Assembly: GCF_029761935.1 (NCBI RefSeq) | Contig: NZ_CP121699.1 | Location: 2,976,001 to 3,040,000, forward strand | Source: Microbacterium testaceum | GTDB taxonomy: Bacteria; Actinomycetota; Actinomycetes; Actinomycetales; Microbacteriaceae | DNA: 64,000 bases | Reading direction: 5' to 3' | Shown here: one piece after another, positions 18,961-56,881 of the stretch | Layout of the letters: each line of letters starts with the position of its first letter | Position numbering within the stretch: the stretch's first letter is position 1 | Translations under genes and position numbers: made by a program | Notes under the pieces: generated by a model | The model's database searches: none | What the model was told of the DNA's origin: nothing | Seen by the model: the letters and a program-made list of their open reading frames with translations, nothing else

Positions 18961-20000
18961 CGATTCCGGATGCCGCTGCGCTCCGCGCCCGCATCCGCGT
19001 GCGCCGCCGTGACTTCGTCGTCGACGCCACGCTCGACGTCGCCCCGGGCGAGACCGTCGCCGTGATGGGCCGGAGCGGCGCGGGGAAGTCGACGCTGCTC
19101 GGCGCGCTCGCCGGGCTCACGCCGCTCGACGAGGGGGAGATCTCGGTCGACGGGCGGGTCCTCGACCGCCCGCCGCGCACGCGGACCGCCCCGATGCACC
19201 GGGGGATCGTTCTGCTCGGGCAGGAGGCGCGCCTCTTTCCGCACCTTCCCGTGCGCGAGAACGTCGCCTTCGGTCCGCGGGCGGCCGGGGTGCCGGCATC
19301 CGTCGCCCGCGACGCCGCCGAGGAGTGGCTGGCCCGCGTCGGATTGCCGGGCACGGGCGATCGGCGCCCCGCACAGTTGTCGGGCGGGGAGCAGCAACGC
19401 GTCGCGGTCGCCCGGGCTCTGGCGGCCGAGCCGCGGGTCGTCCTGCTCGACGAACCCCTCGTCGCGCTCGATGCGGTCACGGCCTCGGAGATCCGCGCGA
19501 TGCTGCGGGAGCGGCTCGCGGGCGTGACGACCGTCGCCGTCACCCACGACGCGATCGATGCGGCCGCCCTGGCCGACCGCCTCGTGATCGTGGAGCGCGG
19601 GCGGGTGACGCAGGAGGGGCCCGTTCGCGACGTTCTTTCGACCCCGCTCACCGACGTCGCCGCGCGGATCGCCGGTCTGGAGCGGGTCGTCGGCGAAGCC
19701 CGCGGCGGGGCGTTCGTACGGGGCGCGCTCCGGCTCGCGTCGGCGGATCCGGCCTCCCGTGCGCTCGCCGCGACCGACGGTGCCACTCTCGCGGCGGTCT
19801 ACCGTGCGATCGACGCGCGACTCGGAGAGGGGACTCCGGTCCGCGTGGTCTCCGTGGAGCCCACGCCCACGGGCGTGCGCGTCGTCACCGCCGAGGGCTC
19901 CGCCGAGGTAGCGCCGATCGAGGCGGCATCCATCCGGCCCGGCGACACGGTGCTGTGGAGCGTGCCGCCGGAGCGCGTCCGCTTCGTCGCGTCACGCTGA
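18957..20000 (+). CDS. modC: Molybdate ABC transporter ATPase ModC
   Basis: 347 residues. ABC ATPase with Walker A GRSGAGKST, Q-loop LLGQEARLFPHL, signature LSGGEQQRVAVARAL, Walker B RVVLLDEPL and H-loop VAVTHD. The C-terminal third carries a TOBE/Mop domain (TPTGVRVVTAEGSAEV ... RPGDTVLWSVPPERVRF) that senses bound molybdate and can inhibit transport, as known for ModC. ATGA overlap with modB. The stop codon lies one base from the convergent cydC stop. Confidence 0.95.
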   Translation: MTIPDAAALRARIRVRRRDFVVDATLDVAPGETVAVMGRSGAGKSTLLGALAGLTPLDEGEISVDGRVLDRPPRTRTAPMHRGIVLLGQEARLFPHLPVRENVAFGPRAAGVPASVARDAAEEWLARVGLPGTGDRRPAQLSGGEQQRVAVARALAAEPRVVLLDEPLVALDAVTASEIRAMLRERLAGVTTVAVTHDAIDAAALADRLVIVERGRVTQEGPVRDVLSTPLTDVAARIAGLERVVGEARGGAFVRGALRLASADPASRALAATDGATLAAVYRAIDARLGEGTPVRVVSVEPTPTGVRVVTAEGSAEVAPIEAASIRPGDTVLWSVPPERVRFVASR

Positions 20001-20001
20001 C

Positions 20002-21687
20002 TCAGGCCGCCGCCACGCGCCCGTTCTCGAGCCGCACCTCGCGGTCGACCAGCCCCTCCGGCACCTCGACGTGTGAGACCAGCACGACGGCCCGGTCCCG
20101 TCCGATCGCACCGAGCAGGTCGACGAGCAGAGCGTCGGATGCCGCGGGATCGACGCCCGCGGTGGGCTCGTCGAGCACGAGCACCGGGAAGTCGCGCAGC
20201 ACCGCCCGCGCGAGCGCGAGACGCTGAGCCTGCCCGCCGGACACCAGCCCACCCCGGTCGCCGACTCGGGCGTCGAGGCCGCCGCGCTCGCGGACCCAGG
20301 GGTCGAGCCCGACGCGCTCGAGCACCGTCCACAATTCGTCGTCGGTGGCGCCCTCGCGCGCGAAGAGGAGGTTCTGGCGCACGGACTCGTCGAACAGGTA
20401 CGGCGACTGCTCGATGATCCCGACGGTGCGGCGCAGATCGTCGCCCGAGATGTCGCGGGCCTCGATGCCGCCGACCCGGTACGAGCCCTCGTAGTCGAGG
20501 AAGCGCGTGAGCACGTGCGCCAGCGTGGTCTTGCCCGCTCCGCTCGGGCCCGTGACGAGGACGCGCTCGCCCGGCCCCAGGCGCAGGGCGATGTCGTCGA
20601 GGCGGCCGGCGTCGCCGTCGACTCCACCGCGTGCCGGCCAGTGCGCGCGAACGCCGGTCAGCTCGAGGCCCGCGCCGAGGATCGGTGCCGCACCGGTTGC
20701 GGCGGGCTCGTCGCGGGGGAGTCCGTCGGGGACGGCTTCGGGCACGGCGTCGGCGATGCGTTGCGCCGCGGAGCGCACCTGGCGCCAGGAGGCCAGGGCG
20801 AGGGGCACCGGCCCGAACACCTCGAACACGGCCATCGGCACCAGCACGACGACGGCGAGCCCCGGGCCCGACAGGGATCCACCGGCGAGCGACGGGGCGG
20901 CGACGAGCAGGGCGGCGAGCGAGGCGACCCCGGCGAGCACCGAGACGGCCCCCGAGGTGAGCCCCTGCGCCCCGCCGCGTCGGACGACGGCTCGGCGCAG
21001 AGCGGCGTCGGCGCGGCGGACGCGCTCGGTCGCGGCATCCAGGGCTCCGTACGCCGTCAGCACGTCGAGGTTCGCGAGCAGGTCGTGCACCGCGTCGGCG
21101 ACGGCGGCGCGGAGGGGGGCGATGGAGCGCTCGGCGCGGGCACCGGCGGCCCCGCCCACGACGACCGCCAGGGCGAACGCGACCGTCAGGCAGACGAACA
21201 GCACGACGGCCGCGGGCCACGAGACGATCGCGGTGAACACCACGGCGGCGAGCGAGGTGAAGACGGCGACCGCGAGGGGGAGCACCACCCGCAGGGGGAG
21301 GTTCTGCAGTTCGTCGACGTCGTCGACGACGCTCGAGAGCAGCCCCCCGCGCCGCGAGCGCGCGAGTCCGTCGGGAGCGAGGGGGACGAGGTCGCGCACG
21401 AGATCGGCGCGTACTCCGGCGAGCTGTTCCAGGGCGGCGTCGTGCCCGGTGAGGCGCTCGAGGTAGCGGAACACTCCCCGCGACAGGGCGAACGCGCGCA
21501 CCCCGACCACCGCCATCGACAGGTACATCACGAGGGGCTGTTCGGCGGCCCGCGCGATGAGCCACGCACTCGCCGCGAGGAGTGCGATCGAGCTCGCCGC
21601 GGTGCCGAAACCCGACAGCACCGCGGGCGCGAAGCGTCGCCGCGAGGGCATCGCCGAGCGCAGGATGCCGCGTATACGCGCGTTCAC
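20002..21687 (-). CDS. cydC: Thiol reductant ABC exporter subunit CydC
   Basis: 561 residues: six-helix ABC transmembrane domain followed by an ATPase domain with Walker A GPSGAGKTT, signature VSGGQAQRLALARA and Walker B VLVLDEPTAGVD. CydCD exports glutathione/cysteine and is required for assembling heme into cytochrome bd. GTG start at 21687 overlapping the cydD stop (GTGA). Last gene of the cydABDC operon. Convergent with modC with one intergenic base, so transcription from both sides meets here without an obvious terminator. Confidence 0.93.
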   Translation of the reverse strand: MNARIRGILRSAMPSRRRFAPAVLSGFGTAASSIALLAASAWLIARAAEQPLVMYLSMAVVGVRAFALSRGVFRYLERLTGHDAALEQLAGVRADLVRDLVPLAPDGLARSRRGGLLSSVVDDVDELQNLPLRVVLPLAVAVFTSLAAVVFTAIVSWPAAVVLFVCLTVAFALAVVVGGAAGARAERSIAPLRAAVADAVHDLLANLDVLTAYGALDAATERVRRADAALRRAVVRRGGAQGLTSGAVSVLAGVASLAALLVAAPSLAGGSLSGPGLAVVVLVPMAVFEVFGPVPLALASWRQVRSAAQRIADAVPEAVPDGLPRDEPAATGAAPILGAGLELTGVRAHWPARGGVDGDAGRLDDIALRLGPGERVLVTGPSGAGKTTLAHVLTRFLDYEGSYRVGGIEARDISGDDLRRTVGIIEQSPYLFDESVRQNLLFAREGATDDELWTVLERVGLDPWVRERGGLDARVGDRGGLVSGGQAQRLALARAVLRDFPVLVLDEPTAGVDPAASDALLVDLLGAIGRDRAVVLVSHVEVPEGLVDREVRLENGRVAAA

Positions 21688-41686: not shown

Positions 41687-44278
41687 GTGACCCCCCTCCT
41701 CGAGCACGTTCCGGTCGGCGCCGATCCGGATGCCGCGTACCTGGGCTTCGTCGAGTGGGCGAACTCCCGCGGCCTCACGCTCTACCCCGCGCAGGACGAG
41801 GCGGTCATCGAGATCGTCTCGGGTGCGAACGTGATCCTGTCGACCCCGACCGGCACGGGCAAGTCGCTCGTCGCGGTGGCCGCGCACGCGGCATCCCTCT
41901 CCCGGGGTGGACGCACGTACTACACCGCACCGATCAAGGCCCTGGTGAGCGAGAAGTTCTTCGCCCTCGTCGACGTCTTCGGCGCCGAGAACGTCGGCAT
42001 GGTCACGGGCGATTCGTCGGTCAACTCCGACGCCCCGATCATCTGCTGCACCGCCGAGATCCTCGCGAACCTCGCCCTGCGGCAGGGGGCCGACGCCGAC
42101 GTCGACCAGGTCGTCATGGACGAGTTCCACTACTACGGCGAGGCCGACCGCGGCTGGGCGTGGCAGGTGCCGCTGCTGCTGCTGACCCGCGCGCAGTTCA
42201 TCCTCATGTCGGCGACCCTGGGAGATGTCACCGACATCGCCGACGACCTCTCGCGTCGCACCGGTCGGCCCACGGCGCGGGTGACCGGCGTCGAGCGCCC
42301 CGTGCCGCTGCACTTCGAGTACGCGCGCACGCCCGTGCACGAGACGGTGCAGGAGTTGCTCGACACGAAGCAGGCGCCGATCTACGTCGTGCACTTCTCG
42401 CAGGCCGCGGCCATGGAGCGCGCGCAGGCGCTGTCGTCGATCCGGATCATCGGCCGCGAGCAGCGCGACGAGATCGCCGAGGCGATCGGCGGCTTCCGCT
42501 TCACGACCGGCTTCGGCAAGACGCTGTCACGCTACGTGCGCGCGGGCATCGGCGTGCACCACGCCGGCATGTTGCCGCGCTACCGCCGCCTCGTCGAGAC
42601 GCTCGCGCAGCGCGGCCTGCTACGCGTCATCTGCGGCACCGACACCCTGGGTGTCGGCATCAACGTGCCGATCCGCACGGTGCTCATGACCGCGCTGACC
42701 AAGTACGACGGCACGCGCATGCGACAGCTCTCGGCGCGCGAGTTCCACCAGATCGCCGGGCGCGCGGGACGAGCCGGTTATGACACTGCGGGGACCGTCG
42801 TCGTCATGGCGCCCGATCACGAGATCGAGAACGCCGCGCAGATCCTCAAGGCCGGCGACGACCTCAAGAAGCAGAAGAAGATCGTGCGCAAGAAGGCGCC
42901 GCAGGGCTTCGTCAACTGGACCGAGCAGAGCTACGATCGCCTCGTCGCCGCCGAGCCCGAGCCGCTCGTGCCGCAGATGAAGCTGTCGGCCGCGATGCTC
43001 ATCAACGTCATCGCGCGCGGCGGAGACGTGTTCGGCAACGTCCGCTCGCTCGTCTTCGACAACCACGAGCCCCGCGCCCGCCAGTACGAGCTCGCCCGCC
43101 GCGCGATCGCGATCTTCCGCACGCTCGTGCAGGCCGGGGTGGTGGAGGTCCTGCCCCCGCGCGAGTCGCCAGAATCTGTCGCTTCCGACGGTGCGGAAGC
43201 GACGATTCCTGGCGACTCGCGCATTCGGTTGACCGTCGATCTGCAGCCGAACTTCGCGCTCAATCAGCCGCTGTCGCCGTTCGCGCTCGCCGCGATCGAG
43301 ATGCTCGACCCCGAGGTCGAGCTCGGGAGAGGACCGGATGCCGTGCCCCCGGCGTCCTCGGTCGGCACCGGGCACTACGCGCTCGACGTCGTCAGCGTCA
43401 TCGAGTCGACCCTCGACGACCCGCGCCCGATCCTGTCGCAGCAGCAATTCCGCGCGCGCGGCGAAGCCGTCGCGGCGATGAAGCGCGACGGCATCGAGTA
43501 CGACGAGCGCATGGAACTGCTCGAAGAGATCACCTGGCCGAAGCCCCTCGACGAGCTGCTCGCGCAGGCGTACGAGGTGTTCGCCTCGAGCCAGCCGTGG
43601 ATCCGCGATTTCGAGCTGTCGCCGAAGTCGGTCGTGCGCGACATGTACGAGCGCGCGTGCTCGTTCGGCGAGTACGTCTCGCTGTACCAGCTCGCGCGCA
43701 GCGAGGGCCTCGTGCTGCGCTACCTCAGCGACGCGTTCCGCGCGATCCGCCAGACCGTGCCGGTCGACGCGCAGACCCCCGACCTGCTCGATCTGATCGC
43801 GTGGCTCGGCGAGGTCGTGCGGCAGGTCGACTCGAGCCTCGTCGACGAGTGGGAGCAGCTCATCAACCCCGCGGACGACCCCACGGCCCCCGTGGTGCCT
43901 GCCGCTCCGCCGTCGATCCTCACCAACCGGCGCGCGTTCGGCGTGCTCGTGCGCAACGAGATGTTCCGCCGCGTGCAGCTCGCCGCCCTGCAGCGCGACG
44001 ACGAGCTCGTCGAGCTCGACCCCGACGTCGACTGGCCGAGCGCCCTCGACAGCTACTTCGACGAGCACGACGAGATCGGCACCGGGGGAGCGGCGCGTTC
44101 CTCCGCTCTCGTCGTCATCGACGAGTCGTCGGCCTCTGACGGCGTCTGGCGCGTCGAGCAGATCATCGACGACCCCGCCGGCGACCACGACTGGCGCATC
44201 CGCGCCGAGGTCGACCTCGCCGCCTCCGAGGAGGAGGGCACGGCGATCGTGCGCGTCACCGAGGTGCTGCGGCTCTGA
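41687..44278 (+). CDS. SKI2-like DEAD/DEAH-box helicase with DUF3516-type C-terminus
   Basis: 863 residues. Superfamily 2 helicase: motif I TPTGTGKSLV, Ia TAPIKALVSEKF, Ib-type STAEIL region, motif II MDEFHYYGE (DEFH), motif III MSATLGD, motif V CGTDTLGVGINVP and motif VI FHQIAGRAGRAGYD. The C-terminal third matches the DUF3516 extension of actinobacterial SKI2-like helicases, thought to act on RNA. GTG start at 41687. Residues about 491-512 (PRESPESVAS...EATIPGDSRI) are encoded by a palindromic element inserted in frame in a loop between the helicase core and the C-terminal region. Confidence 0.92.
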   Translation: MTPLLEHVPVGADPDAAYLGFVEWANSRGLTLYPAQDEAVIEIVSGANVILSTPTGTGKSLVAVAAHAASLSRGGRTYYTAPIKALVSEKFFALVDVFGAENVGMVTGDSSVNSDAPIICCTAEILANLALRQGADADVDQVVMDEFHYYGEADRGWAWQVPLLLLTRAQFILMSATLGDVTDIADDLSRRTGRPTARVTGVERPVPLHFEYARTPVHETVQELLDTKQAPIYVVHFSQAAAMERAQALSSIRIIGREQRDEIAEAIGGFRFTTGFGKTLSRYVRAGIGVHHAGMLPRYRRLVETLAQRGLLRVICGTDTLGVGINVPIRTVLMTALTKYDGTRMRQLSAREFHQIAGRAGRAGYDTAGTVVVMAPDHEIENAAQILKAGDDLKKQKKIVRKKAPQGFVNWTEQSYDRLVAAEPEPLVPQMKLSAAMLINVIARGGDVFGNVRSLVFDNHEPRARQYELARRAIAIFRTLVQAGVVEVLPPRESPESVASDGAEATIPGDSRIRLTVDLQPNFALNQPLSPFALAAIEMLDPEVELGRGPDAVPPASSVGTGHYALDVVSVIESTLDDPRPILSQQQFRARGEAVAAMKRDGIEYDERMELLEEITWPKPLDELLAQAYEVFASSQPWIRDFELSPKSVVRDMYERACSFGEYVSLYQLARSEGLVLRYLSDAFRAIRQTVPVDAQTPDLLDLIAWLGEVVRQVDSSLVDEWEQLINPADDPTAPVVPAAPPSILTNRRAFGVLVRNEMFRRVQLAALQRDDELVELDPDVDWPSALDSYFDEHDEIGTGGAARSSALVVIDESSASDGVWRVEQIIDDPAGDHDWRIRAEVDLAASEEEGTAIVRVTEVLRL
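43160..43221. repeat. In-frame palindromic element within the helicase gene
   Basis: Arms CGCGAGTCGCCAG...CGCTTCC (43160-43186) and the complementary right arm (43195-43221) with four mismatches near the middle and an 8-nt loop. Homologous to the element in cydD, preceded in both genes by CCCCCGCGCGAG and translated in the same phase. Confidence 0.85.
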
Positions 44279-44368: not shown

Positions 44369-44929
44369 TCAGGACGTGCGGGCGACGCGGTTCTCGGCGC
44401 TGACCATCCACGACAGCTGCTCGAGGCGCTCGAGCACGCCGTGCAGGATGTCGGCGCTCGTGGGGTCTTCGTCGTCGACGTCGTCGTGCACGTCGCGCAC
44501 CGTGCCGACAGTGACGTCGAGGCGCTCGGTGATGAGGTCGATGACCTCGGCGGTGTCGACCTCGCCCTGGGGGAACTCGGGCAGTGTCGTGGTCTCGGCG
44601 ACGGTGTCGCTGCGGCCGTCGGGCAGAGCGTGCAGGGCACGCATGCGCTCGGCGATCTCGTCGCCGAATTCACGGGCGGCGTCGATGATCTCGTCGAGCT
44701 GCAGGTGGGTGTCGCGGAAGTTCTTGCCGACGACGTTCCAGTGGGCCTGCTTGCCCTGGATCGACAGCTCGATGAGGTCGACCAGCACGGCCTGGAGCGC
44801 GTCGGTCAGCTTCTCCGACGCCTGGAAGCCCTGTTCGGCGTTCTGCTCGTCGGTGGTCTCGGGACCGCTGCCTCCGCGCGCGGGGCGGCGACGGTTCTTG
44901 GTGGGGGCGTCCTTGGTGGTGGTGGACAT
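44369..44929 (-). CDS. dps: Dps family DNA-binding ferritin-like protein
   Basis: 186 residues. Four-helix Dps/miniferritin: the dinuclear ferroxidase site residues lie in KQAHWNVVGKNFRDTHLQLDEI (His and Asp/Glu) with AREFGDEIAERMRALHALPDG next. Binds DNA and oxidises Fe(II) with H2O2, protecting in starvation and oxidative stress. The N-terminal ~28 residues are Lys/Arg-rich and disordered, suiting DNA binding. ATG at 44929. Transcribed leftward from the 206-base gap before the surface-protein operon. Confidence 0.93.
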   Translation of the reverse strand: MSTTTKDAPTKNRRRPARGGSGPETTDEQNAEQGFQASEKLTDALQAVLVDLIELSIQGKQAHWNVVGKNFRDTHLQLDEIIDAAREFGDEIAERMRALHALPDGRSDTVAETTTLPEFPQGEVDTAEVIDLITERLDVTVGTVRDVHDDVDDEDPTSADILHGVLERLEQLSWMVSAENRVARTS

Positions 44930-45135: not shown

Positions 45136-45753
45136 ATGCGCTCCGTTACTGCTTTCCGTTCGCTGTCCGTGATGATGGCGCTGCTGGTCGCCGTGGTGGT
45201 GGGGCCGGTGGTGGCGACGGCGATGGCGTCGCCGGCTCACGCGTCCGCGTCGGCGGATGCTGATCGCGACACCATTCCCGATGCTGTCGAGCGTGTGGTG
45301 TGCGGGTCGGCGACGTGCGCCACGGGGGTGGAGGATCGCGATGGTGACGGGATCCCGGATGCCACGGAGGTTCCGGCCTGCGGTGACACCACGTGCGCCT
45401 CGCCGACTTCCGACAGAGACGACGACGGCATCCCCGATTATGCGGAGCGGCTCGTCTGCGGCTCCGACACCTGCTCGAACGCCACGGAGGACGCCGACGG
45501 CGATCGGATCGGGGATTGGGTCGAGTTCGTCATCTGCGGCACGCGCACGTGCGCTGACGGGACGGAGGATTACGACGCCAACGGTGTCTCGGATGCCGCA
45601 GAGCTGGCCGCCTGTGTGAAGCGCGTGAACGATCTCGCCGTGACGGGCGGCGCCGTGGCGCTGTGGGTCGCCGTCGCCGCAGCGATCGCTCTGGCTGTGG
45701 GGGTCGCGCTGCGCACGCGTCGCCGCCGGGCGGGCACGGGGACGAGCGCGTGA
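45136..45753 (+). CDS. Secreted protein with Ca-loop-like repeats and LAXTG sorting signal
   Basis: 205 residues. Signal peptide (about 1-37, cleaved near PAHASA), then five copies of an acidic loop of the type DxDxDxIPDxxE (for example DRDGDGIPDATE, DRDDDGIPDYAE, DADGDRIGDWVE) similar to thrombospondin type 3 / dockerin calcium loops. Between them a CGxxTC unit recurs four times (VCGSATC, ACGDTTC, VCGSDTC, ICGTRTC), probably disulfide-bonded. The C-terminus is LAVTG (167-171), a hydrophobic helix and RTRRRR: a sorting signal of the LAXTG type used by class E sortases of actinobacteria. Its stop overlaps the GTG of the RHS gene, so the two products are probably made together on the cell wall. 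No sortase gene in the window. Confidence 0.82.
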   Translation: MRSVTAFRSLSVMMALLVAVVVGPVVATAMASPAHASASADADRDTIPDAVERVVCGSATCATGVEDRDGDGIPDATEVPACGDTTCASPTSDRDDDGIPDYAERLVCGSDTCSNATEDADGDRIGDWVEFVICGTRTCADGTEDYDANGVSDAAELAACVKRVNDLAVTGGAVALWVAVAAAIALAVGVALRTRRRRAGTGTSA

Positions 45754-48700
45754 TCCGTCGCGCTGTAGCGGCCGTCGTCACGGCCGCGGTGGTCTTCGGT
45801 GGCGGCGCTGTCGCGGAGCCGCCCGCCACCGCGGCGGAGCTCGCGGCCGTGGCGCGGGCTGAAGTGCTGGAGCGCGTGCGCCAGGCGGCGTCGCCCGACG
45901 CGTCCTATGGGGCATCCGTGGCGGGCGTTGAGGAGCCGCGTTCGGAGGCGCCGGCGCCGGCGGGTTCGGCAACCCTGGACCCCGGTGCCGCGTCCACCCT
46001 GCGTGCCGACCGGCTCGGTGTGAGTGCGGTCTTCTCCGGACACGAGGTCGACCGCCGCGTCACGCTCGAAGCCCGCCAACCTGCCGACGAGGCGATGGCT
46101 ATGCGCACCGCGGCGGCTGAGACGGCCGGCACTGTCGTGTCGGATGTGGTCGAGATCACGGCGACGGATGCCGACGGCGAGCGGCTCACCTCGTTCCCTG
46201 CGGAGTTGCACGAGGTCCCTGACGATGAGTCCGCAGACGGACCCCCGGTGTACGACGTCACCCCGGGTATCGCGCTGACCCTCGCGGTCGATGCGGCCCG
46301 GGTCGCCGAGGCGGGGGTTGATCCCGCGACGCTGCAGATCTACACCCGTTCCGACCCGGGTGAGCCGTGGTCGCTGTTGCCGTCGTACTTCGACGCCGAG
46401 ACGGGCACGGTGCGGGGCGAGTCGGATCACCTGTCGCAGTTCGTGGTGATCGGCATCCCGTTCGTCCCCGCTCCCGGACCTCGGATCGTGCTGGACCCCG
46501 ACAACGACGAGGGGTCGGTGCAGACGCCCGCGCCGGCGTCGGAGTTCCCCTACAACGGGGACCTCGTCGACCGCCTGCGCGGGATGCTCGAGGACCGGTG
46601 CCTCGCTCGGGTGACCGTGACGCGACCCGCGGGCGTGCGTTATGTCTCGCGCGACACCCGGGCACGGGTGGCCGAGGCGGCGAAGCCCGACGCGACCGTG
46701 GGCTTCGGTTTCAACACGTTCCGCGGATTCGCGTGGGGCACCGAGCGGGAGGGCGGGACGCTGGCGTTCTCGCGGGGACGCGGCGGCGACAACGCTCTGG
46801 CGCAGTCGTTCGTCGACCAGATGCCGGCGTACACCGGGCGTCCGGCGAAGCGGGCGGCATCCACTCGGAACTTCCCTTTCGCGGAGTACGCGAACCTGCC
46901 GGGCGCGTACGCGCACGTCGAGGCGCTGTACCTCGACCACAATTTCGACCGGCCGGTGATCGATCACGGGTTCGGCAGCATCGTGGACGGGGCGTTCCGC
47001 TCTCTCGGTGGTTACCTCGAAACGCAGGGGTTCGACTGCTCCGACCCGGCGACCGGGGGGTGGCCCTCTCCGCCCTCGCAGGCGGAGCTCGCCCGCTGGC
47101 GGAACCTCGGCTACCAGAATCACCAGATCTACGGCGCCGACCCGGTGTCGTTTTCGACCGGGAACCTGGTGGAGTCGTTCCCGTTGTTCTCGCTCAGCGG
47201 GCCGGGGGCGCAGGCGATCGAGGCGACCCTCGTCTTCAACGCGCAGGACGGTCGCCTTTCGCGGGTGGGGGCGGGGTGGTCATTCAGCCTCGGCGCACGG
47301 GCGCAACGCTTCTCCGACGGGTCCGTGCTGACCGTGCGCGGCGACGGCGCGTCGGACGTTTTCACCCCGGACGGGGCGGGCGGTTACACCTCGGCCGACG
47401 ATCCCGACCTGACCCTCGTCGAGGCGGGGGCGGGGCGTCTGCGCCTCGCCGACCGTGAGGGGGCGTCGTGGGTGTTCGATGCGGCCGATATCGAGGGCAT
47501 CGGAGAGCTTGTTAGCCACACCGACGCGTCCGGCGCCACGACCACCCTCACCTACGGCGCCGCCGACCCGAACGTGCACCAGTTCGTGCCCCTGACCTCG
47601 GTGACCGATGCCGCGGGGCAGACGGTGACGCTGGAGAGCGATGGCGTCGGGCGCGTCACGGCGTTCCGCCTTCCCGACGGGCGCACGTGGCGCCTCGCGT
47701 ACGACGGTGCAGGGAACCTCGCGTCGATCATCGACGCGACCGGCGGCACCCGCTCGTTCACGTACGACGCGGCGCATCGCATGCTCACCGCGACCGACGC
47801 TTCCGGTTCGACGTACCTCGTCAACGTGTACGACGACCAGGGCCGGGTGGTCTCTCAGCGCGACGCGGAGGGCACCGAGCGGCGCTTCGTCTACGAGGCG
47901 GGCCGCACGATCTACACCGACAACGAGGGCCGGCGGAGCGTCTTCGGCTTCGACGACCGGTACCGCATCACCAGCGTCGAGAACCCCGCCGGGCAGGTCC
48001 CGCGGTGGGAGTTCGACGCGCGCGGGGACGTCACCTCGCACACCGACGAGGCGGGACGCACCACGCGGTACGTCTACGACGCGGTGGGGAATCTGGCGAG
48101 CGAGACGGATGCCGCGGGCCACGAGACCCGGTACACCTCGACCCCGTCGGGTCAGGTGGCTTCCCGAATCGACGCGCTCGGACGCACCTGGGCGTACACC
48201 TACGACGCGCGTGGCCTCGTCACGGGCGAGGCCCGGCCGGATGGGACGTCTATGCGGTACGAGTACACCCCGGGCGGCGATCTGTCGGCGGCGATCGCAC
48301 CGTCGGGGGCGAGGACCCGGTACGAGTACGACGCCCGCGGCAACCTCACCGCGCTGACTGATCCGCTGGGGCACCGCACGACCTACGGGTACGACGCGAG
48401 CAACAGGCTGACAACCGTGACCGATCCGCTCGGCGCTGTCACCACATGGGAGTGGGACGCGGGCGACCGCATTGTCGCGACCGTCGATGCCACCGGTGCG
48501 CGGACGACGTTCACCTACGACCGGAACGACAACCTGACCTCGGCGACGGATGCCACCGGTGCCGTGACCCGGTACGAGTGGGACGCCCTGCTGCGCATGG
48601 TGAAAACCATCGCTCCCGACGGCGGTGAGACCGGGTACGCGTACGACCGCGAGGACAACCTCGTCTCGTCGACCGACCCCGAGGGCGCGACGACACACCT

Positions 48701-51700
48701 GCTGCTGGATACGGCGTACCGCGAGACCGGCGTCGTCGACCCGAACGGCGGCCGCTGGGAGCAGGAGGTCGATGCCACCGGCATCCCGACCGCCGTCACC
48801 GATGCCGCCGGGGCGGTGACCTCTCTTGCCCTCGATGAGCTCGGACGGACGGTGAAGACCACCGATCCGACCGGTGTCTCGACGAGTGTCACCTACGACG
48901 AGGTCGGACGAGTGGCGACCGAGACCGACGCCGCCGGCGGGGTGACGGCCTACGCGTACGACGCACTGGATCGGGTGACGAAGGTCACCGACCCCGCCGG
49001 ATATGCCAGCGAGTTCGTCTACGACGTCGACGGCAACCTCGTCGGCACGATCGACCGCCTCGGCAACCCGACGCTGTTCGAAGTCGACGCGGCGGGCCAG
49101 GTGGTGGCGATGACGGATGCCACCGGCGCCGTCGAACGCTATGAATATGACGCCGCCGGTCAGATCACTGCCGTCGTCGACGCCGACGGCGCGCGGACGA
49201 CGTTCACGTACGACGCGGGCGGTCGCACGACGAGCGTCACCGACCCGCTCGGGGCCGTGACCCGCACCACCTACGACGCGGTGGGGCGGGTCGTCGTCGA
49301 GACCGATCCGCTGGGGGCCGAGACCCGCGTCGAATACGACTCCGTCGGTCGGGTGGTGCGCACCGTCGATGCGCTCGGTGCTGAGCAGAGGCTCGCCTAC
49401 GACCGCGCCGGCCGCCGCACGAGCGCGACGAACGCGAACGGCGTCACGACCACATACGCGTACGACGCGGTCGGCAACCTGACGACCGTGATCGAAGCCG
49501 CGGATGCCGCAGCTCCCGCCGACAGCGACACCAATGTCACGACCACCTACACCTACAGCGCCACCGGACTCTTGACCGGGATGACGGGACCGACCGGCGC
49601 CACGACGGGGTGGGAGTACGACGCGGCCGGTCGCCCCGTCGTCGAGAGGGGGCCCGCGGGCGAGAGGACCGAAACGGCGTACGACGCCGCCGGGCGGGTG
49701 CAGCGGGAGTCGAACGGGGTCGGTCTGATCGCCGCGTACCGCTACGACGCGCGCGGCGATATCGCCACTCTCACCCGCACTGACGGGGATGTCACGTTCG
49801 AATACGACGCTGAGCAGCGGCCCATCGCGATGACCGACCCCGCCGGGGTGACCGGGTGGATCTACGACGAGGTCGGCCGCATGCGCGAGCAGCTCGACTC
49901 CAACGGGCAGAAGCTCACGCACGAGTACACCGCCACAGGTCTCACCGCGGCCACGACCCTGCCGGACGGGACGGTCACGCGGTTCGCGTACGACGCTGCG
50001 GGGCGCGCGACGACGCAGACCACTCCTTACGGTGAGGTCGACTACTCCTACGACGCGGTCGGGCGGCGCACGGGCATCGAGCGGCCGAACGGGGTGCACA
50101 CCAGCGTCGCCTACGACGCGATCGGAGACGTCACCCGTGTCGCCCACACCACCCCCCTGCCCACCGAGGGGACGACCGCGGCTGTGGCGAGCACCGTCTC
50201 GGCGTTGCGGACACAGGTCGACGGATGCCGCAACATCGACGACTATCTCGGCTCTCGGACGCTGCCGGTCGCGGGTGCGGCGAAGAAGGAGTGCGTCAAG
50301 ACCGCGGCCTACCTGGACCGGCGGACCCTGCCCGCGCCGGCACCCGCAGCGCCCGCGGGTGCGTCGCTGAGTTACGACTACACCTGGAACCCCGACGGGT
50401 CCCTCGCCACCAAAGCACGCACCATCACCGCCCCCGACGGGGCGGCGGACGCGGCGTCGCAGTCGTACGGGTACGACGACCTCGCCCGCCTCATCGAATC
50501 CGCAACGAACTCAGGGGAGACCACCCGATACGGGTACGACGCGGCCGGCAACCGCACCAGCGCCACCACCGGGGGCCGCACCGTCACCTCCACCCTCGAT
50601 GCCGCCGGACGGGTGACCTCCACCTCCGACGGGGCACGCTACGAGTACGACGCTGCCGGTTCGCGCTCCTCGGCAACGGAGAGTGGAGAGCGGACCACCT
50701 ACACCCACGACCCCGCCGGACGACTTACCGGCACCGCGGGCGAGGGGCGGAAGACGTCCTACGTCTACGACGGTCTCGACCGGCGCGTCCGCTCGAGCGA
50801 CACCGAAGCGTACGGAACCGACCGCGCGACCAGCGCGTGGGACGGGCTCCTCCCCACGGCGGGTGGTAGCTCCCGTCACGGGGCGTCCAGCGTTCTCCGA
50901 GATGCGGGTGGGGACGCGCTGGTGCAGTCCGGTCCCGCGGGGGTGTCTTGGCTCCTGGGCGATGCCCGTGATGTCACCGCCACCGCCACCAACGGAGGAA
51001 TGCTCGACGACCTCGTCGCCTACGGCGACTTCGGGAACACGTCCTACGCCACCACCGGGTGGAAGGGTGCCGTCGGCTACGACGGGCAACCGAGTGATGC
51101 CACCCTCGGGACGAGCGACTACTACGCCAGAAACTACGACCCCTCCCTCGGGTCCTGGCTGCAAGCCGACACCTGGCGCGGCCAGCAAGACGACCCGCAA
51201 TCCCTCAACAGATACGCCTACGTCAAGAACTCGCGCGTCACCTACGCAGACGCGTTCGGGTTCGTGCATATGCGCGCCAGCGAAGGCACCCGGTCAGTCC
51301 GTCCCGCCTCTTTCGCCAGTCAGGCGCAGAGGAACAACGTGGGCTTCCTCAACCTCGCGAACCGGCGAAACTCGTCGGTCGGGAGCTTCTCGATCCCAGC
51401 GCTCGCGTCTGCTCACAAGGGGTTGCGGGGGCCCGCCGCGAAGTCAACGATTCGAAAGCCCGCATCCCGCTCAGCACAGACGACCGCGCTTCGCCACGTC
51501 GCATCCATGACAGGGTGCACAGCTTCGGACTGGTCGTGTCGCAGCGGGTGTGTCTTTTCCTACACAACGTGCGACACGAAGCCCAGCCCCGCCGTCAAAG
51601 CGACGCCGCCGCCGACCATCGCTTGCGGCAGAGACATGAAGGTGGGTACGAGCCCGGGCCAGGTCGCCATCAACGAGGCCTGCGGACGAGCATACGCCGA

Positions 51701-52145
51701 AGCGAACATCCGCAAACAAGACCAGTGGGTCCAAAATCTCTGGGACTGGACTCAAGGCGTCGACCGAGCCATCAGGCCAGCGGTTCCCTTGATCGCTGTA
51801 GGGGCGGCCGCCGCGCGAGGTGCCGCTCGAGCGCCCGACGTTGTTGTGCCGCCGAAGGTTCCGCTGGTATCGCGAGAGACCCTGCTGGAGACCTGGAGCA
51901 AGCTCGATGCCGGCAAGCAACCAAACGTGCGGCAAGTTTCCACAGAGGATGAGCTGTTGAGAATTTATGAAAACTGGACTGCTGGCGCGTCACCCGTTGC
52001 GAACCCGGGGAATGGCGGCAGCGCTTTTCTGCTCGCGGACGGCACGCGCATCGGTTGGCGCCCTACCTCCAAGTCGGTCGGCCCCACCATCGACATAAAA
52101 ATTGCGGGAGAGGGTAAGCAGTTGAAGATTCACATAGGCGGGTAA
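45750..52145 (+). CDS. Secreted RHS/YD-repeat polymorphic toxin
   Basis: 2131 residues. Signal peptide (about 1-30); residues 30-240 hold a Ser/Thr-rich region and a ZU5-like beta domain ending ESDHLSQFVVIG. About 246-430 resemble the N-acetylmuramoyl-L-alanine amidase (Amidase_3) fold, but with catalytic residues changed. From about residue 630 some forty YD repeats (consensus YDAxGNLTSxTDAxGxxT) form the RHS shell; it closes with the core motif YYARNYDPSLGSWLQADTWRG and LNRYAYVKN (about 1790-1820). The last ~300 residues are the variable tip; about 2040-2131 end in DGTRIGWRPTSKSVGPTIDI...KIHIGG, a pattern suggesting a nuclease-type toxin. GTG start overlaps the LAXTG gene. Codon use and AT content change at the tip. 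Likely contact-dependent toxin against neighbouring bacteria. Confidence 0.88.
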   Translation: MIRRAVAAVVTAAVVFGGGAVAEPPATAAELAAVARAEVLERVRQAASPDASYGASVAGVEEPRSEAPAPAGSATLDPGAASTLRADRLGVSAVFSGHEVDRRVTLEARQPADEAMAMRTAAAETAGTVVSDVVEITATDADGERLTSFPAELHEVPDDESADGPPVYDVTPGIALTLAVDAARVAEAGVDPATLQIYTRSDPGEPWSLLPSYFDAETGTVRGESDHLSQFVVIGIPFVPAPGPRIVLDPDNDEGSVQTPAPASEFPYNGDLVDRLRGMLEDRCLARVTVTRPAGVRYVSRDTRARVAEAAKPDATVGFGFNTFRGFAWGTEREGGTLAFSRGRGGDNALAQSFVDQMPAYTGRPAKRAASTRNFPFAEYANLPGAYAHVEALYLDHNFDRPVIDHGFGSIVDGAFRSLGGYLETQGFDCSDPATGGWPSPPSQAELARWRNLGYQNHQIYGADPVSFSTGNLVESFPLFSLSGPGAQAIEATLVFNAQDGRLSRVGAGWSFSLGARAQRFSDGSVLTVRGDGASDVFTPDGAGGYTSADDPDLTLVEAGAGRLRLADREGASWVFDAADIEGIGELVSHTDASGATTTLTYGAADPNVHQFVPLTSVTDAAGQTVTLESDGVGRVTAFRLPDGRTWRLAYDGAGNLASIIDATGGTRSFTYDAAHRMLTATDASGSTYLVNVYDDQGRVVSQRDAEGTERRFVYEAGRTIYTDNEGRRSVFGFDDRYRITSVENPAGQVPRWEFDARGDVTSHTDEAGRTTRYVYDAVGNLASETDAAGHETRYTSTPSGQVASRIDALGRTWAYTYDARGLVTGEARPDGTSMRYEYTPGGDLSAAIAPSGARTRYEYDARGNLTALTDPLGHRTTYGYDASNRLTTVTDPLGAVTTWEWDAGDRIVATVDATGARTTFTYDRNDNLTSATDATGAVTRYEWDALLRMVKTIAPDGGETGYAYDREDNLVSSTDPEGATTHLLLDTAYRETGVVDPNGGRWEQEVDATGIPTAVTDAAGAVTSLALDELGRTVKTTDPTGVSTSVTYDEVGRVATETDAAGGVTAYAYDALDRVTKVTDPAGYASEFVYDVDGNLVGTIDRLGNPTLFEVDAAGQVVAMTDATGAVERYEYDAAGQITAVVDADGARTTFTYDAGGRTTSVTDPLGAVTRTTYDAVGRVVVETDPLGAETRVEYDSVGRVVRTVDALGAEQRLAYDRAGRRTSATNANGVTTTYAYDAVGNLTTVIEAADAAAPADSDTNVTTTYTYSATGLLTGMTGPTGATTGWEYDAAGRPVVERGPAGERTETAYDAAGRVQRESNGVGLIAAYRYDARGDIATLTRTDGDVTFEYDAEQRPIAMTDPAGVTGWIYDEVGRMREQLDSNGQKLTHEYTATGLTAATTLPDGTVTRFAYDAAGRATTQTTPYGEVDYSYDAVGRRTGIERPNGVHTSVAYDAIGDVTRVAHTTPLPTEGTTAAVASTVSALRTQVDGCRNIDDYLGSRTLPVAGAAKKECVKTAAYLDRRTLPAPAPAAPAGASLSYDYTWNPDGSLATKARTITAPDGAADAASQSYGYDDLARLIESATNSGETTRYGYDAAGNRTSATTGGRTVTSTLDAAGRVTSTSDGARYEYDAAGSRSSATESGERTTYTHDPAGRLTGTAGEGRKTSYVYDGLDRRVRSSDTEAYGTDRATSAWDGLLPTAGGSSRHGASSVLRDAGGDALVQSGPAGVSWLLGDARDVTATATNGGMLDDLVAYGDFGNTSYATTGWKGAVGYDGQPSDATLGTSDYYARNYDPSLGSWLQADTWRGQQDDPQSLNRYAYVKNSRVTYADAFGFVHMRASEGTRSVRPASFASQAQRNNVGFLNLANRRNSSVGSFSIPALASAHKGLRGPAAKSTIRKPASRSAQTTALRHVASMTGCTASDWSCRSGCVFSYTTCDTKPSPAVKATPPPTIACGRDMKVGTSPGQVAINEACGRAYAEANIRKQDQWVQNLWDWTQGVDRAIRPAVPLIAVGAAAARGAARAPDVVVPPKVPLVSRETLLETWSKLDAGKQPNVRQVSTEDELLRIYENWTAGASPVANPGNGGSAFLLADGTRIGWRPTSKSVGPTIDIKIAGEGKQLKIHIGG

Positions 52146-52243
52146 GTCTAGGACGGTGATCGCGTTCTTCCAGACGCCCCTACTTCGCAAGATGGCGCAA
52201 CTTAAAACTGAGACGAGCTGAGCGATGATTGGAGCAAAAGAGC

Positions 52244-52753
52244 ATGGCCGAGAGACTGCGCTACTTAGGCGGCAGTGAAATGCTGTTCCCGCGCGGAGAT
52301 TATCGTTGGGTCGATGTGCGGAGGTTTGAGGTGGTTGAGCCGGCAGCTGCTGTTGAGGTGTTGGCCAGCCTTATCGCAAGCCCCTGGTACGACCACGGAT
52401 ATGACGTCCCTAGATCGGACGCCGCTGATCCTGGTGGGCGAGTTCATGGGCCATACAAACTAGACGCGATACGCGCCTCCAAATTCAATCCGATCGATAG
52501 GGACCGGGTTTTGACACGGCTAAGAATGTGGGCGGATTTGCATGGGCCGCAGCCGGAGTCGTTCTCGTCAGACTTGGAAGCGTTCGTTGAGAGCGTCGTT
52601 CCCGTTGGCTTCGATGTATGGGAGCTTCCTTTGCTAGGCACGTTGGCGAGACGTGAGTGGGGGGACGTGGTCGGGGTTGACGGGTTCCATGAGTTCGTTG
52701 CGATTTCCCCCGGCCGGAATCTCTTGAATCTTGTCGTCGCCGCGGACGACTGA
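52244..52753 (+). CDS. Probable immunity protein for the RHS toxin
   Basis: 169 residues, no family recognised; acidic/aromatic single-domain protein (MAERLRYLGGSEMLFPRGDYRW...). It follows the toxin tip by 98 bases on the same strand, in the position where immunity genes of polymorphic toxins sit, and shares the more AT-rich composition of the tip. ATG at 52244 with GGAG nine bases upstream; a TTG at 52229 would add five residues. Assignment rests on position, not on similarity. Confidence 0.65.
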   Translation: MAERLRYLGGSEMLFPRGDYRWVDVRRFEVVEPAAAVEVLASLIASPWYDHGYDVPRSDAADPGGRVHGPYKLDAIRASKFNPIDRDRVLTRLRMWADLHGPQPESFSSDLEAFVESVVPVGFDVWELPLLGTLARREWGDVVGVDGFHEFVAISPGRNLLNLVVAADD

Positions 52754-52991
52754 TTGCAGCGAGGTGCTCACATCGCCAGCGGTCAACTGTGTCCCCCTCG
52801 ACCTAGAGAGTCTTACGGAGCGGCGGGTGGCACGTCGACGCCGACTGCAATCATTTCGAATAATGGGCGGGTGGGGTGCGGTTCGTTTGGGGTCTATTAC
52901 ATAGGAGCCGCGGGAGTTTCGCAGGCACTCACCGGGAACGCCGGATGTCTGAACTATTTCGAACTCGAAGCTGGATTGAAGGAGGGGAACT

Positions 52992-53495
52992 ATGACCAAA
53001 TTTGTCGAAAGAAACGAAATGCTTCGTAATGGGATGCGCGTGTTGGCGTCGCTCGTTGCAATTGCCAGTCTGGGAAGTACCCTAACCTCTTGTCTATGGA
53101 GCTCGAACAATGCTTTCCCAATTTTTGCGACAGAGGGTAGAGGCGGGCTGGAGTTTGTGTGGTGCGGGCCTGAAATTGGGCCTTACAGATATATTTGAGT
53201 CCACCATCGCAGCAGTTTGTCGGAGGACGGGGAAGATGAGGTCGTGTCCGCTTACGGAAGTTTTTCTTTGCACAATCGTGAAGCCTTTTCCCTTCGAACG
53301 GGTCCAAGTGGGCTGGATTTTCAAGGCAAAGAACTCGAGATGGGCGACGGCAGTCTGATTTTTATCTACTTCGGAGATTCCGCAAGCGAGTTGACGGGGC
53401 CGAACCCGCAGTTCTCAGTGTCATCCAAGGCGCAGATATCGAACGGAAACTGGCTGTCTCCCACTGGTGTTGTGACACAGGCACCTTGCTCGTGA
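52992..53495 (+). pseudogene. Small lipoprotein gene interrupted by an in-frame TGA
   Basis: Strong ribosome binding site AAGGAGGGG before ATG 52992. The frame encodes a lipoprotein signal (lipobox LTSC at about residues 31-34) and continues as GLEFVWCGPEIGPYRYI, then TGA (53196-53198), then the same frame goes on for 99 codons (VHHRSSLSEDGEDEVVSAYG... to QAPCS). Reading the TGA as TGG gives a continuous ~167-residue protein, so one G-to-A change most simply explains the break. Family unknown. Confidence 0.6.
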
Positions 53496-53535
53496 CCTTG
53501 AGCGGACCCTTTGCGCCCCTCAAGGAGACTTTGGT

Positions 53536-53721
53536 GTGGACGGTGGGCCGGTTGGGGTGCGGTTCGATCCGAAATTTAGAACAGATGTGGGTGTTGAGGA
53601 ATTCATGGATAACTTTAAGAAGTATTTAGACCGAGAAGAAGCAAACAGTTGGGATGGTTGGAGCGTCGACTTCACGTCGAAATCAGGACAGCTTGTGAAA
53701 ATCGTATTGCCGGGAGAGTGA
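53536..53721 (+). CDS. Small hypothetical protein in the toxin tail region
   Basis: 61 residues, GTG start with AAGGAG eight bases upstream. Sequence VDGGPVGVRFDPKFRTDVGVE...WDGWSVDFTSKSGQLVKIVLPGE has the look of a small alpha-beta protein or the displaced C-terminal remnant of a toxin. It stops two bases before the next gene's ATG, so the two form an operon. AT-rich. Confidence 0.5.
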   Translation: MDGGPVGVRFDPKFRTDVGVEEFMDNFKKYLDREEANSWDGWSVDFTSKSGQLVKIVLPGE

Positions 53722-53723
53722 CC

Positions 53724-54326
53724 ATGGGTGATCAAGTGATCTTCGCCCACAGCCAGGATGAATTTGACGCCATGCGCGCTCGGATGACAGACCTATGTGA
53801 CGTGAACTCGGTGCTGCCCGCTTGGCCCTTTCGTGGCGGCGGGTACGTTTATACATATGACTTCTTGACGATTCTGTCACGCGGATTTGGGTCAGTTTTG
53901 CAATATATTGCGTCAGAGTGTGGAGATGCCGGGATAGAGATAATGGGTTGGGGGCGCGGCGAGGCGCTCGACTACTTCGGCGTTTACCCCGCTTTCGCCA
54001 TTGGCGCAGAGAGCATCAAACGATCGTATGAATTGGCGCTGAGCGCCGATCGAGTGAATCCTCTCAATAGGTATAACGTTCCGGAAGATATGTTCGAAGG
54101 CATGGTTATCGTCGGCGACTCGGAGTCGTGGTGCCTCTATGGCGACCGCGATTGGGACGTAGTGCTCATCTGGTCGAGGTTCCCGCTTGACCTCGAACCT
54201 CAGGTCCACAAGCCGATGACTTTCGAGGACTTTCTTAGCCCGCTTCGCCCGAGCGGCCCTGGCAACGATCATTCGATCTGGCGGCAACTGTATGCGAACG
54301 TGCGCGCGAACTCCTGGAACGCTTGA
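53724..54326 (+). CDS. Hypothetical protein, candidate orphan immunity protein
   Basis: 200 residues, no family recognised; many aromatic and acidic residues (GGGYVYTYDFLTILSRGF, DYFGVYPAFAIGAESIKRSYEL, SESWCLYGDRDWDVVLIWSRF). Length, composition and place two bases behind a small gene in the RHS tail suit a stored immunity protein, as often found behind RHS loci. ATG at 53724 with GGGAGAG upstream. Confidence 0.6.
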   Translation: MGDQVIFAHSQDEFDAMRARMTDLCDVNSVLPAWPFRGGGYVYTYDFLTILSRGFGSVLQYIASECGDAGIEIMGWGRGEALDYFGVYPAFAIGAESIKRSYELALSADRVNPLNRYNVPEDMFEGMVIVGDSESWCLYGDRDWDVVLIWSRFPLDLEPQVHKPMTFEDFLSPLRPSGPGNDHSIWRQLYANVRANSWNA

Positions 54327-54601: not shown

Positions 54602-54928
54602 ATGAAGCAGTACCAGAAAGTGCTGATGGCGATCGCGAAAGGAGACCCTCAGTGGTCGAGTGCCCTCATGGCTCAAGCTGCCGCTGCGAAAGAGCTCAAC
54701 GAGTCGACGACGATGTTAGACCTGTATGTACCACGTTCCGCCCCGCGGCTGAGTGGATCAGATGGTCCATTGAGCATTCGCACCTTCGTGATCGATGGTT
54801 CCGGGGAGCGTGTCGGAGAGATCCTCGTGTGGATCGCTGGCGGGTACGTGACTTGTCTAGAACAGGCGTGGTACGTCGGAGATGCGCCACGGTCGTGGCC
54901 CGAGGTCGAACAGCTCGTAGCGACGTGA
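54602..54928 (+). CDS. Small hypothetical protein, candidate orphan immunity protein
   Basis: 108 residues (MKQYQKVLMAIAKGDPQWSS...), ribosome binding site GGAGGG ten bases before ATG 54602. The second half (FVIDGSGERVGEILVWIAGGYVTCLEQAWYVGD) looks like an antiparallel beta sheet that ends in a Trp-rich strand, common among small immunity proteins. Family not recognised. The 275 bases between the previous gene and this one hold no gene I can support. Confidence 0.55.
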   Translation: MKQYQKVLMAIAKGDPQWSSALMAQAAAAKELNESTTMLDLYVPRSAPRLSGSDGPLSIRTFVIDGSGERVGEILVWIAGGYVTCLEQAWYVGDAPRSWPEVEQLVAT

Positions 54929-55072: not shown

Positions 55073-56881
55073 GTGCCTCTCACTCCGCCCGCTCCGTCCC
55101 GCCCGCTGCGCGACTACGCCGCGATCGGCGACGGACGCACTGTTGCCCTTATCGGGCTCGACGGGGGAGTGGACTGGCTGCCGCTGCCGAACATCCACTC
55201 ACGTCCCGTGTTCGCGCGTCTCGTCGACGAGTCCGCGGGGGGCTGCATCCAGCTGGCTCCCGTCGAGGAGTACGAGGTCACCCGCCGGTACATCCCGCGC
55301 ACGAACGTCCTCGAGACCACCTTCACCACCGCCACCGGAGTCGCGAAAGTCACCGACGCGATGGTCACCGGGATCGCCGGGCGCCTGCCCTGGGCGGAGC
55401 TCGCGCGCCGCGTCGACGGCGTGAAGGGCGAGGTCGAATTCGCCTGGTGCGTGCAGCCGGGCACAATGCTGCGGTCGGCGGCGCCGTGGACCGAGCGCAT
55501 CGACGGCTTCTCGATCATGCGCATCGGGCACGTCTCGCTCGCGGTGACGGGCCACGAGCACGGTGTGCACGGAGAGCCGGATGCCGGGAACGAGAGCATC
55601 GACGGAGGCTTCACCGCCACGAAGGGCTCGCGGCACCTGCTCGTGATCGCGGCCACCGAGGGGGAGCCCCTGCGCATCCCCGACGCGAAGAACGTCGACC
55701 GCGGCATCGACCGCACCATCGGCGGGTGGGAGATGTGGTCCGACGAGTTCTCGTACGAGGGCCCCTGGGCCGACGACGTGCAGCGCAGCGCCCTCGCCCT
55801 GAAGCTCCTGCTCTTCAGCCCGACCGGCGCGATCGCGGCCGCGGCGACGACATCGCTGCCCGAGAACCCGCGCGGCGGCAAGAACTGGGACTACCGCTAT
55901 GCCTGGGTGCGCGACCTCGCCTATACCGCGCACGCGTGGGTCGGTTTCGGCCTGCGCGAGGAGACGCACGCCGCGATCTCGTGGCTGCTGCGCACGATCC
56001 GCAAGAACGGCCCCGAGGTGCAGGTCATGTACACCCTCGACGGCGACGCGGAGATCGGGCTCGAGAAGCACCAGGTGCCGGGGTGGAACGGCAACCAGCC
56101 GGTCGTCACCGGCAACCCCGCGCAGGGCCAACTGCAGTTGGGCGTTTACGGCGACCTCATCGCCCTCTGCCGCACCTACGTCGAGGCCGGCAACCGCCTC
56201 GACATCCAGACCGGGCGCCTGCTCGCCGACGTCGCCGACCGCACGTGTGATCTGTGGCGTCGCGAGGACTCCGGCATGTGGGAGCTCCCGGAGCTGCGGC
56301 ACTACACCTCGTCGAAGATGGGCTGCTGGAAGGCGCTCGACGATGCGCAGTGGCTGGCAGCGGGCGGGCACATCCCCGACAACGGCGACCGCTGGCGTGC
56401 CGAGCGCGACCGCATCCACCGCTGGGTCGACGAGCGGTGCTGGTCGGAAGACCTCCAGGCGTACACCCTCGCGCCCGGCAGCGAGGATCTCGATGCCTCG
56501 GTGCTGCTGCACGCGCCCACCGGGTTCGACCGCGGTGAGCGGATGTCGAGGACGGTGGATGCCATCACCGAGCGTCTCACCACGGAGAACCACCTCGTCT
56601 ACCGCTACACCGGTATGGACCAGGAGGAGCACACCTTCGTCGCGTGCGCCTTCTGGCGGGCGACCGCCCTGGCCTGCGTCGGCCGGCACGCCGAGGCCAT
56701 CGAGGCGATGGACGCTCTCGTCGCCCAGGGCAACGACGTCGGGATCTACTCCGAGATGATCGCCGAGGACGACGGGGCCTTCTGGGGCAATCTGCCTCAG
56801 GCGCTCAGCCACCTCGCCCTCATCAACGCCGCGCTCGTCATCCGCGAGGTCGTCGACGACGCCGAACTCGGCGACCGCTGA
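55073..56881 (+). CDS. Glycoside hydrolase family 15 protein (glucoamylase/trehalase-like)
   Basis: 602 residues. N-terminal beta-sandwich (about 1-230) and (alpha/alpha)6 barrel. GH15 signatures: NWDYRYAWVRDLAYTAHA, the catalytic acid in DSGMWELPEL (Glu), and the catalytic base in YSEMIAEDDGAFWGNLPQALSH. In actinobacteria related enzymes hydrolyse trehalose or maltodextrins; no signal peptide is seen, so it is cytoplasmic, which favours trehalase or glycogen/maltodextrin breakdown. GTG start at 55073. Confidence 0.92.
   Translation: MPLTPPAPSRPLRDYAAIGDGRTVALIGLDGGVDWLPLPNIHSRPVFARLVDESAGGCIQLAPVEEYEVTRRYIPRTNVLETTFTTATGVAKVTDAMVTGIAGRLPWAELARRVDGVKGEVEFAWCVQPGTMLRSAAPWTERIDGFSIMRIGHVSLAVTGHEHGVHGEPDAGNESIDGGFTATKGSRHLLVIAATEGEPLRIPDAKNVDRGIDRTIGGWEMWSDEFSYEGPWADDVQRSALALKLLLFSPTGAIAAAATTSLPENPRGGKNWDYRYAWVRDLAYTAHAWVGFGLREETHAAISWLLRTIRKNGPEVQVMYTLDGDAEIGLEKHQVPGWNGNQPVVTGNPAQGQLQLGVYGDLIALCRTYVEAGNRLDIQTGRLLADVADRTCDLWRREDSGMWELPELRHYTSSKMGCWKALDDAQWLAAGGHIPDNGDRWRAERDRIHRWVDERCWSEDLQAYTLAPGSEDLDASVLLHAPTGFDRGERMSRTVDAITERLTTENHLVYRYTGMDQEEHTFVACAFWRATALACVGRHAEAIEAMDALVAQGNDVGIYSEMIAEDDGAFWGNLPQALSHLALINAALVIREVVDDAELGDR

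Follow-up and report, generated by a model that had tools for sequence, protein, structure and literature searches.

A gene for a predicted wall-anchored LAXTG protein strictly coupled to an RHS toxin-type gene in Microbacterium testaceum and related actinobacteria

We analysed a 64,000-nucleotide (nt) stretch of the Microbacterium testaceum genome (NZ_CP121699.1, positions 2,976,001 to 3,040,000; hereafter the window), the host genome being a single contig of 3.38 Mb. The locus of interest consists of two overlapping genes, the first encoding a small protein with an LAXTG-type sorting signal and the second a 2131-residue RHS protein, followed by a gene for a 169-residue protein, here called the follower (Table 1). 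An initial annotation, made without database searches, had described all three genes, and on re-reading their coordinates and lengths were exact, as was the GTGA overlap inside which the RHS gene starts with GTG. The identity proposed for the large protein was borne out by profile searches (Pfam RHS_repeat, E = 9e-169; NCBIfam Rhs_assc_core, 46.1 bits against a cut-off of 32.5). The LAXTG and RHS genes form a conserved, strictly coupled module, and the RHS protein combines a variable tip with an unusual N-terminal head.

The LAXTG protein carries, as first described, an LAVTG motif (residues 167–171) followed by a hydrophobic stretch and an RTRRRR tail, together with exactly four CGxxTC units (at residues 56, 82, 108 and 134). 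Of the five DxDxDxxxD loops originally listed, four are strict (residues 41, 67, 93 and 119) and the fifth reads DYDANGVSD, with N replacing the third D. The loops are of a pattern that would be expected to bind calcium. Over 60 repeat units, both cysteines of the pair are present in 56 and both are lost in 4, with no unit retaining a single one, a pattern that speaks for a disulphide bond inside each repeat. LAXTG is the motif of class E sortases, in agreement with the literature, and of three sortase-domain loci in the host genome, the one assigned to a class belongs to class E (235.8 bits, cut-off 160). The motif, hydrophobic stretch, positively charged tail and genomic sortase are together what is expected of a class E sortase substrate. 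In addition, the protein scores 27.2 bits (cut-off 27) with the NCBIfam model NF058582 (LAVTG motif-containing sortase-dependent surface protein); at an E value of 0.01 this model matches 10 of 15 module members, all 15 of which retain LAXTG.

For the RHS protein, we aligned 121 heads, namely that of the window and those of 120 of its 151 matches. Residues 66–239 are predicted to adopt a fold of the ZU5/GAIN superfamily, and all 121 heads hold a His-Leu-Ser triplet in the loop between strands 220–225 and 230–235. His-Leu-Ser/Thr before the last strand is the cleavage motif of GAIN domains, and the triplet agrees with it in both sequence and position. The CxH motif of Zhang et al. 2012 was not found in these heads, in which position 225 is Ser (107 heads), Ile (8) or Leu (6). 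The following segment, residues 241–428, has the predicted fold of Amidase_3. The zinc site of this family, composed of His, Glu and His, was mapped onto the heads through alignment with 4rn7: both histidines are gone in 121 of 121 heads, the first lying in a loop that reads LDPD(N/D)(D/N) and the second position being Gly or Ala, and the glutamate (Glu265) is retained in every head. Loss of both zinc histidines from the predicted fold firmly marks this domain as a pseudo-amidase. A distant relative (L094, 4030–9003) leads from its signal peptide straight into the pseudo-amidase and has neither a GAIN-like domain nor an LAXTG neighbour.

A genome-wide search and co-occurrence count, suggested in the initial annotation as a check on the two-gene layout, recovered it as a conserved module in Microbacteriaceae. 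We searched 299 genomes of the family, drawn evenly, with profiles of the RHS head (A1) and the LAXTG protein (A2) at an E value of 1e-10. Both profiles matched the identical 12 genomes, host included, and neither matched the other 287; the positive genomes fall in 8 of 85 genera. Under independence, the chance of this 12-genome coincidence would be ~1e-21, a figure that ignores shared ancestry and the fact that A1 was built from LAXTG-adjacent loci. Fourteen complete heads pair one-to-one with 14 LAXTG copies on the same strand, LAXTG first and with <250 base pairs (bp) between matches. One head in two pieces (G007) was counted once, and one locus with an interrupted RHS frame (G024; open frame of 938 amino acids (aa)) was included, its LAXTG neighbour being present; two partial heads in G125 stop at contig ends, where the upstream gene is unreadable, and lie outside the 14.

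A separate scan of genome contigs for LAXTG relatives returned 47 loci, including 13 close relatives (L003–L015, 51–95% identity). These come from 10 genomes (L003 and L014, L005 and L012, and L011 and L013 each share one) of Microbacterium, Agromyces, Agreia, Leifsonia and one actinobacterial MAG (metagenome-assembled genome), and in each case the gene immediately downstream, in the same orientation, is an RHS gene. The remaining 34 loci (≤46% identity over part of the protein) showed no RHS match in the available flanking DNA, which is sometimes short. The situation that the initial annotation had named as damaging to its proposal, an LAXTG protein mostly lacking an RHS neighbour, was therefore seen in neither set (RHS adjacent in 14/14 and 13/13 copies). 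All 15 modules read base by base have overlapping genes; with the RHS start placed at the overlapping start codon, the overlap is 4 nt in 12 of them and 1 nt in 3. The host genome also holds a second copy of the module (G000:C1:198104–205344; L002; L117 1605–8845), in which the LAXTG protein (at G000:C1:198131) is 55% identical to the first and precedes an RHS gene of its own, whose tip differs.

The C-terminal tips of these RHS proteins are polymorphic. We clustered 104 of 134 sequences, leaving out 30 without the core-end motif, and obtained 34 clusters, 23 of them single and the largest, which may rest on a shared pre-tip segment, with 47 members. Nearly half of the clustered tips stand in this one group, and many relatives may share either a pre-tip segment or a common tip. 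For 26 pairs whose heads share at least 90% identity, the tip family is the same in 11 and different in 15, so that similar backbones carry exchangeable tips, as is characteristic of RHS polymorphic toxins. Toxin-type Pfam accessions among the matches listed (120 of 151) include PF15529, PF15535, PF15537, PF15542, PF15649, PF15657, PF14436 and PF00545.

The window tip itself matched no Pfam or NCBIfam toxin model. Its relatives were found directly after a HINT domain in P0124 (39% over 84 columns), in a Kitasatospora HINT toxin, on two rhizobial plasmids, in two proteins of the same RHS type (P0011 and P0109) and, within a quite different scaffold, in a Mycobacterium branderi plasmid protein (L080, 5055–5969, reverse strand; E = 1.4e-12), with recurrent positions GKQ..VR, DGT, R, S.SGG.TIDI and K.H. 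The tip is a member of an unnamed toxin-type family that occurs in other scaffolds, and may well be toxic. On a different view, the module is no weapon but a surface structure for development or adhesion, its tips serving as recognition modules; the GAIN-like head and YD shell do resemble animal adhesion proteins such as teneurins, and the window tip is without an assigned enzyme fold. We think this quite improbable, given that named toxin domains occur among the tips of relatives (such as Ntox24 in P0111) and that cassette displacement is visible at the locus.

The initial annotation had proposed the tip and the follower as a toxin–immunity pair. While the toxin half of this proposal is backed by relatives of the tip that terminate polymorphic toxins, the pairing itself is weakly supported, and the role of the follower as the tip's immunity gene is doubtful. 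The follower has no Pfam or NCBIfam match, neither to a housekeeping family, which had been named as the damaging outcome, nor to any other, and 10 members of its family gave 0 Pfam families at an E value of 1. Homologues include P0126 (Saccharothrix, 36%) and 16 actinobacterial plasmid records, of which 7 were examined; one on a Herbiconiux plasmid (45%) is the second gene after another RHS gene, and that of L005 (53%) lies 2.3 kb downstream of an RHS gene whose tip is unrelated. A search of 364 genomes of the class found the tip family in 14 and the follower family in 10, the two co-occurring only in the host genome, where they are adjacent, and in G609, where they lie on separate contigs. 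The gene after the tip in 10 of the other 13 tip genomes encodes, as judged by eye, a DDW- or LDW-motif protein of about 120–160 aa and mostly overlaps the tip gene; the next gene of L112 resembles a divergent eleventh member, and those of L113 and L114 differ. This apparent immunity family (L102–L111 and L075), which accompanies the tip family in other actinobacteria, has its motif near the N-terminus, a length of about 113–157 aa and no Pfam model.

We lean slightly towards the view that tip and follower are not a cognate pair and that the follower is a cassette passenger or confers immunity to something else, as suggested by the two genomes shared between the families, their adjacency at the window only, the different protein next to most other tips and the L005 homologue behind an unrelated tip. 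Two observations pull the other way. The M. branderi plasmid carries the tip domain about 0.6 kb from a follower homologue, the one such case among the eight follower loci outside the window for which DNA was available (L005 and L078–L084), and no DDW family gene was found in the window (best E value of 2) or in the host genome (the latter search lacking a positive control), which leaves the follower as the sole neighbour that might protect. Protection could also come from the LAXTG protein, which might shield the producer's own wall or stop the RHS head from binding sister cells, an immunity at the delivery step. One-to-one linkage and a surface location would be equally expected in that case, but immunity genes usually follow the toxin and vary with its tip, whereas the LAXTG gene precedes the RHS gene and is conserved across tips, and we give this explanation little credence.

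The locus also preserves part of its history. The nearest among the loci compared, L003, is from M. testaceum StLB037 (LAXTG protein 95% identical), and a region of it (16776–17466) spanning the 3′ end of the RHS tip and the next gene is matched in the window behind the present tip and follower, where that next gene is represented by two open reading frames (ORFs). The position of this tail shows that an L003-type tip once stood here and was displaced by the present tip and follower. The G+C content is 0.553 at 52001–54000 against 0.65–0.75 in the remaining 2-kb steps, which fits the expectation for cassette DNA. In L003 itself, RHS-core fragments and a second, HExxH-type tip lie behind the main RHS gene (17403–20462) as an orphan-tip array, matching the orphan pattern that PMC12704120 describes for Rhs/WapA loci. 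Farther downstream in the window, a 108-aa ORF (54602–54928, forward) has relatives downstream of the RHS gene in L005 (55%) and L013 (37%) and is perhaps a cassette gene. Ordinary genes flank the locus: a DEAD-box helicase with DUF3516 (41687–44278, forward), a Dps-like ferritin (44369–44929, reverse) and a glycosyl hydrolase of family 15 (55073–56881, forward).

Table 1 Features of the LAXTG–RHS locus, in window coordinates.
Feature	Position	Strand	Basis or description
LAXTG protein, 205 aa	45136..45753	+	signal-type N-terminus, five calcium-type loops, four CGxxTC units, sorting signal
LAVTG sorting signal	45634-45648	+	sequence
GTGA two-gene overlap	45750..45753	+	read from sequence
Predicted secreted RHS protein, 2131 aa	45750..52145	+	RHS profiles
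GAIN/ZU5-like domain, RHS residues 66-239	45945..46466	+	fold matches, head alignment
Invariant His227-Leu228-Ser229 of RHS protein	46428-46436	+	head alignment
Pseudo-amidase, RHS residues 241-428	46470..47033	+	predicted Amidase_3 fold without both zinc histidines
DUF6531, RHS repeats and RHS-associated core, residues 464-1837	47139..51260	+	Pfam/NCBIfam
Variable toxin-type tip, residues about 2031-2131	51840..52145	+	tip relatives
Follower, 169 aa from ATG; doubtful immunity candidate	52244..52753	+	homologue searches
L003-like DNA: 3′ tail of older displaced tip and next gene	52851..53539	+	96.8% identity
Split remnants of L003-type next gene, two ORFs	52992-53198 and 53217-53495	+	
200-aa ORF, left-over cassette gene	53724..54326	+	70% identical relative behind L003 RHS gene

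We interpret the whole as an RHS polymorphic-toxin locus of a Gram-positive bacterium in which a wall-anchored protein is the toxin's dedicated partner, a reading that we give an even chance. Both proteins would be secreted through their signal-type N-termini. The class E sortase is the most likely enzyme to fix the LAXTG protein to the wall, where its calcium-type repeats, with disulphides as staples, would form a short rod. The RHS head, with its GAIN/ZU5-like domain and catalytically dead amidase, may bind this rod, the peptidoglycan or both, holding the RHS protein on the producer surface, where its shell would present the exchangeable tip; a break between Leu and Ser of the invariant triplet could release the amidase–RHS–tip part. 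Contact between the two proteins, wall binding, autocleavage and toxicity are all predictions. A tether or presentation role for the LAXTG protein is our best guess and fits the sorting signal (27.2 bits, cut-off 27), the genomic class E sortase and the amidase-like head. More tentatively, and with less confidence, we can picture a spring-catch display, in which the sortase-anchored calcium rod and the toxin come from one message, the rod takes hold of the dead-amidase/GAIN head, and a self-inflicted cut at His-Leu-Ser in that head frees the loaded RHS capsule on contact.

Several observations weigh against such a tether. None of the analyses made shows contact between the two proteins, and the distances of the LAXTG loop part correlate no better with those of the RHS head than with those of the core (partial correlations of 0.03 and 0.15). 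The Pfam model TSP3_bac (PF18884) fails its gathering score on the window protein (15.4 bits, cut-off 25), which leaves the loop pattern as the basis for predicting calcium binding. The co-occurrence count is qualified by its profiles, built from LAXTG-adjacent loci, and by the common descent that the coincidence figure leaves aside. Lastly, a survey of 297 genomes of the order turned up four from outside the family (G577, G447, G403 and G325) that have related heads without an LAXTG neighbour, indicating that the head can work without the partner and that the LAXTG protein belongs to this clade's version and not to every head relative; an LAXTG relative in G493 sits at a contig end, where its neighbour cannot be judged.

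The LAXTG protein might alternatively be an extracytoplasmic export or folding helper for the huge RHS protein, with an anchor that merely keeps it near the membrane, and RHS would then bind the wall through its pseudo-amidase. Strict coupling and gene overlap suit any obligate helper, an amidase fold could hold peptidoglycan alone, and the loop part varies less across 14 loci (mean distance 0.37) than the GAIN-like domain (0.86), pseudo-amidase (0.70) or core (0.82). A diffusible or membrane helper would, however, have no need of the wall-sorting signal that every module member keeps, and we regard this explanation as unlikely. The tether reading, if correct, would bear on how RHS toxins are held on and released from the surface of single-membrane bacteria, which is poorly known: a coupled sortase substrate, GAIN-like head and pseudo-amidase would together make up a concrete mechanism of presentation in actinobacteria that lends itself to testing, and the last of these exemplifies an amidase fold retained with an altered pocket inside a toxin-type protein.

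In the open PMC literature, we found nothing on Amidase_3 with RHS repeats, RHS with LAXTG or bacterial GAIN autoproteolysis with RHS, nothing relevant on a wall-anchored calcium-binding RHS partner, and no description of a class E sortase substrate coupled to an RHS toxin. Fold matches of the pseudo-amidase include LytH–ActH (7tj4) and CwlD–GerS (7rag), whose Amidase_3 domains are peptidoglycan amidases. In both complexes, an Amidase_3 fold works with a dedicated partner protein, as proposed for the window, whereas the domain in the RHS head sits in a toxin-type protein and both of its zinc histidines are missing. With class E sortase substrates that bear LAXTG signals (Streptomyces SrtE1, PMC5148588), the window protein shares the LAXTG motif, hydrophobic stretch, Arg-rich tail and genomic class E sortase.

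Two further parallels concern the toxin itself. Streptococcus suis WapA/Rhs (PMC12704120) is likewise a wall-associated, secreted Gram-positive RHS polymorphic toxin with displaced older tips downstream and dedicated surface-delivery genes upstream (a cognate SecF-like gene and sortase B), just as the window has a dedicated upstream gene. The neighbour in S. suis is a sortase, whereas that in the window is a sortase substrate, and the S. suis toxin starts with DNRLRE and LysM repeats in place of the GAIN-like domain and pseudo-amidase. Zhang et al. 2012 (PMC3482391) describe an N-terminal ZU5 autopeptidase on RHS toxins, proposed to cut the toxin at its base. A ZU5-superfamily domain N-terminal to RHS repeats is common to their toxins and the window, but theirs has a CxH site and is linked to SpvB and a beta-propeller, whereas that of the window has His-Leu-Ser, the residue at the Cys position varying among Ser, Ile and Leu across the heads, and is followed by a pseudo-amidase and accompanied by a wall-anchored partner, unlike their description. 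RHS polymorphic toxins are a known kind; what is new here is the strictly coupled wall-anchored partner and a head architecture for which we found no description, which together suggest a new way of holding an RHS weapon on the cell surface.
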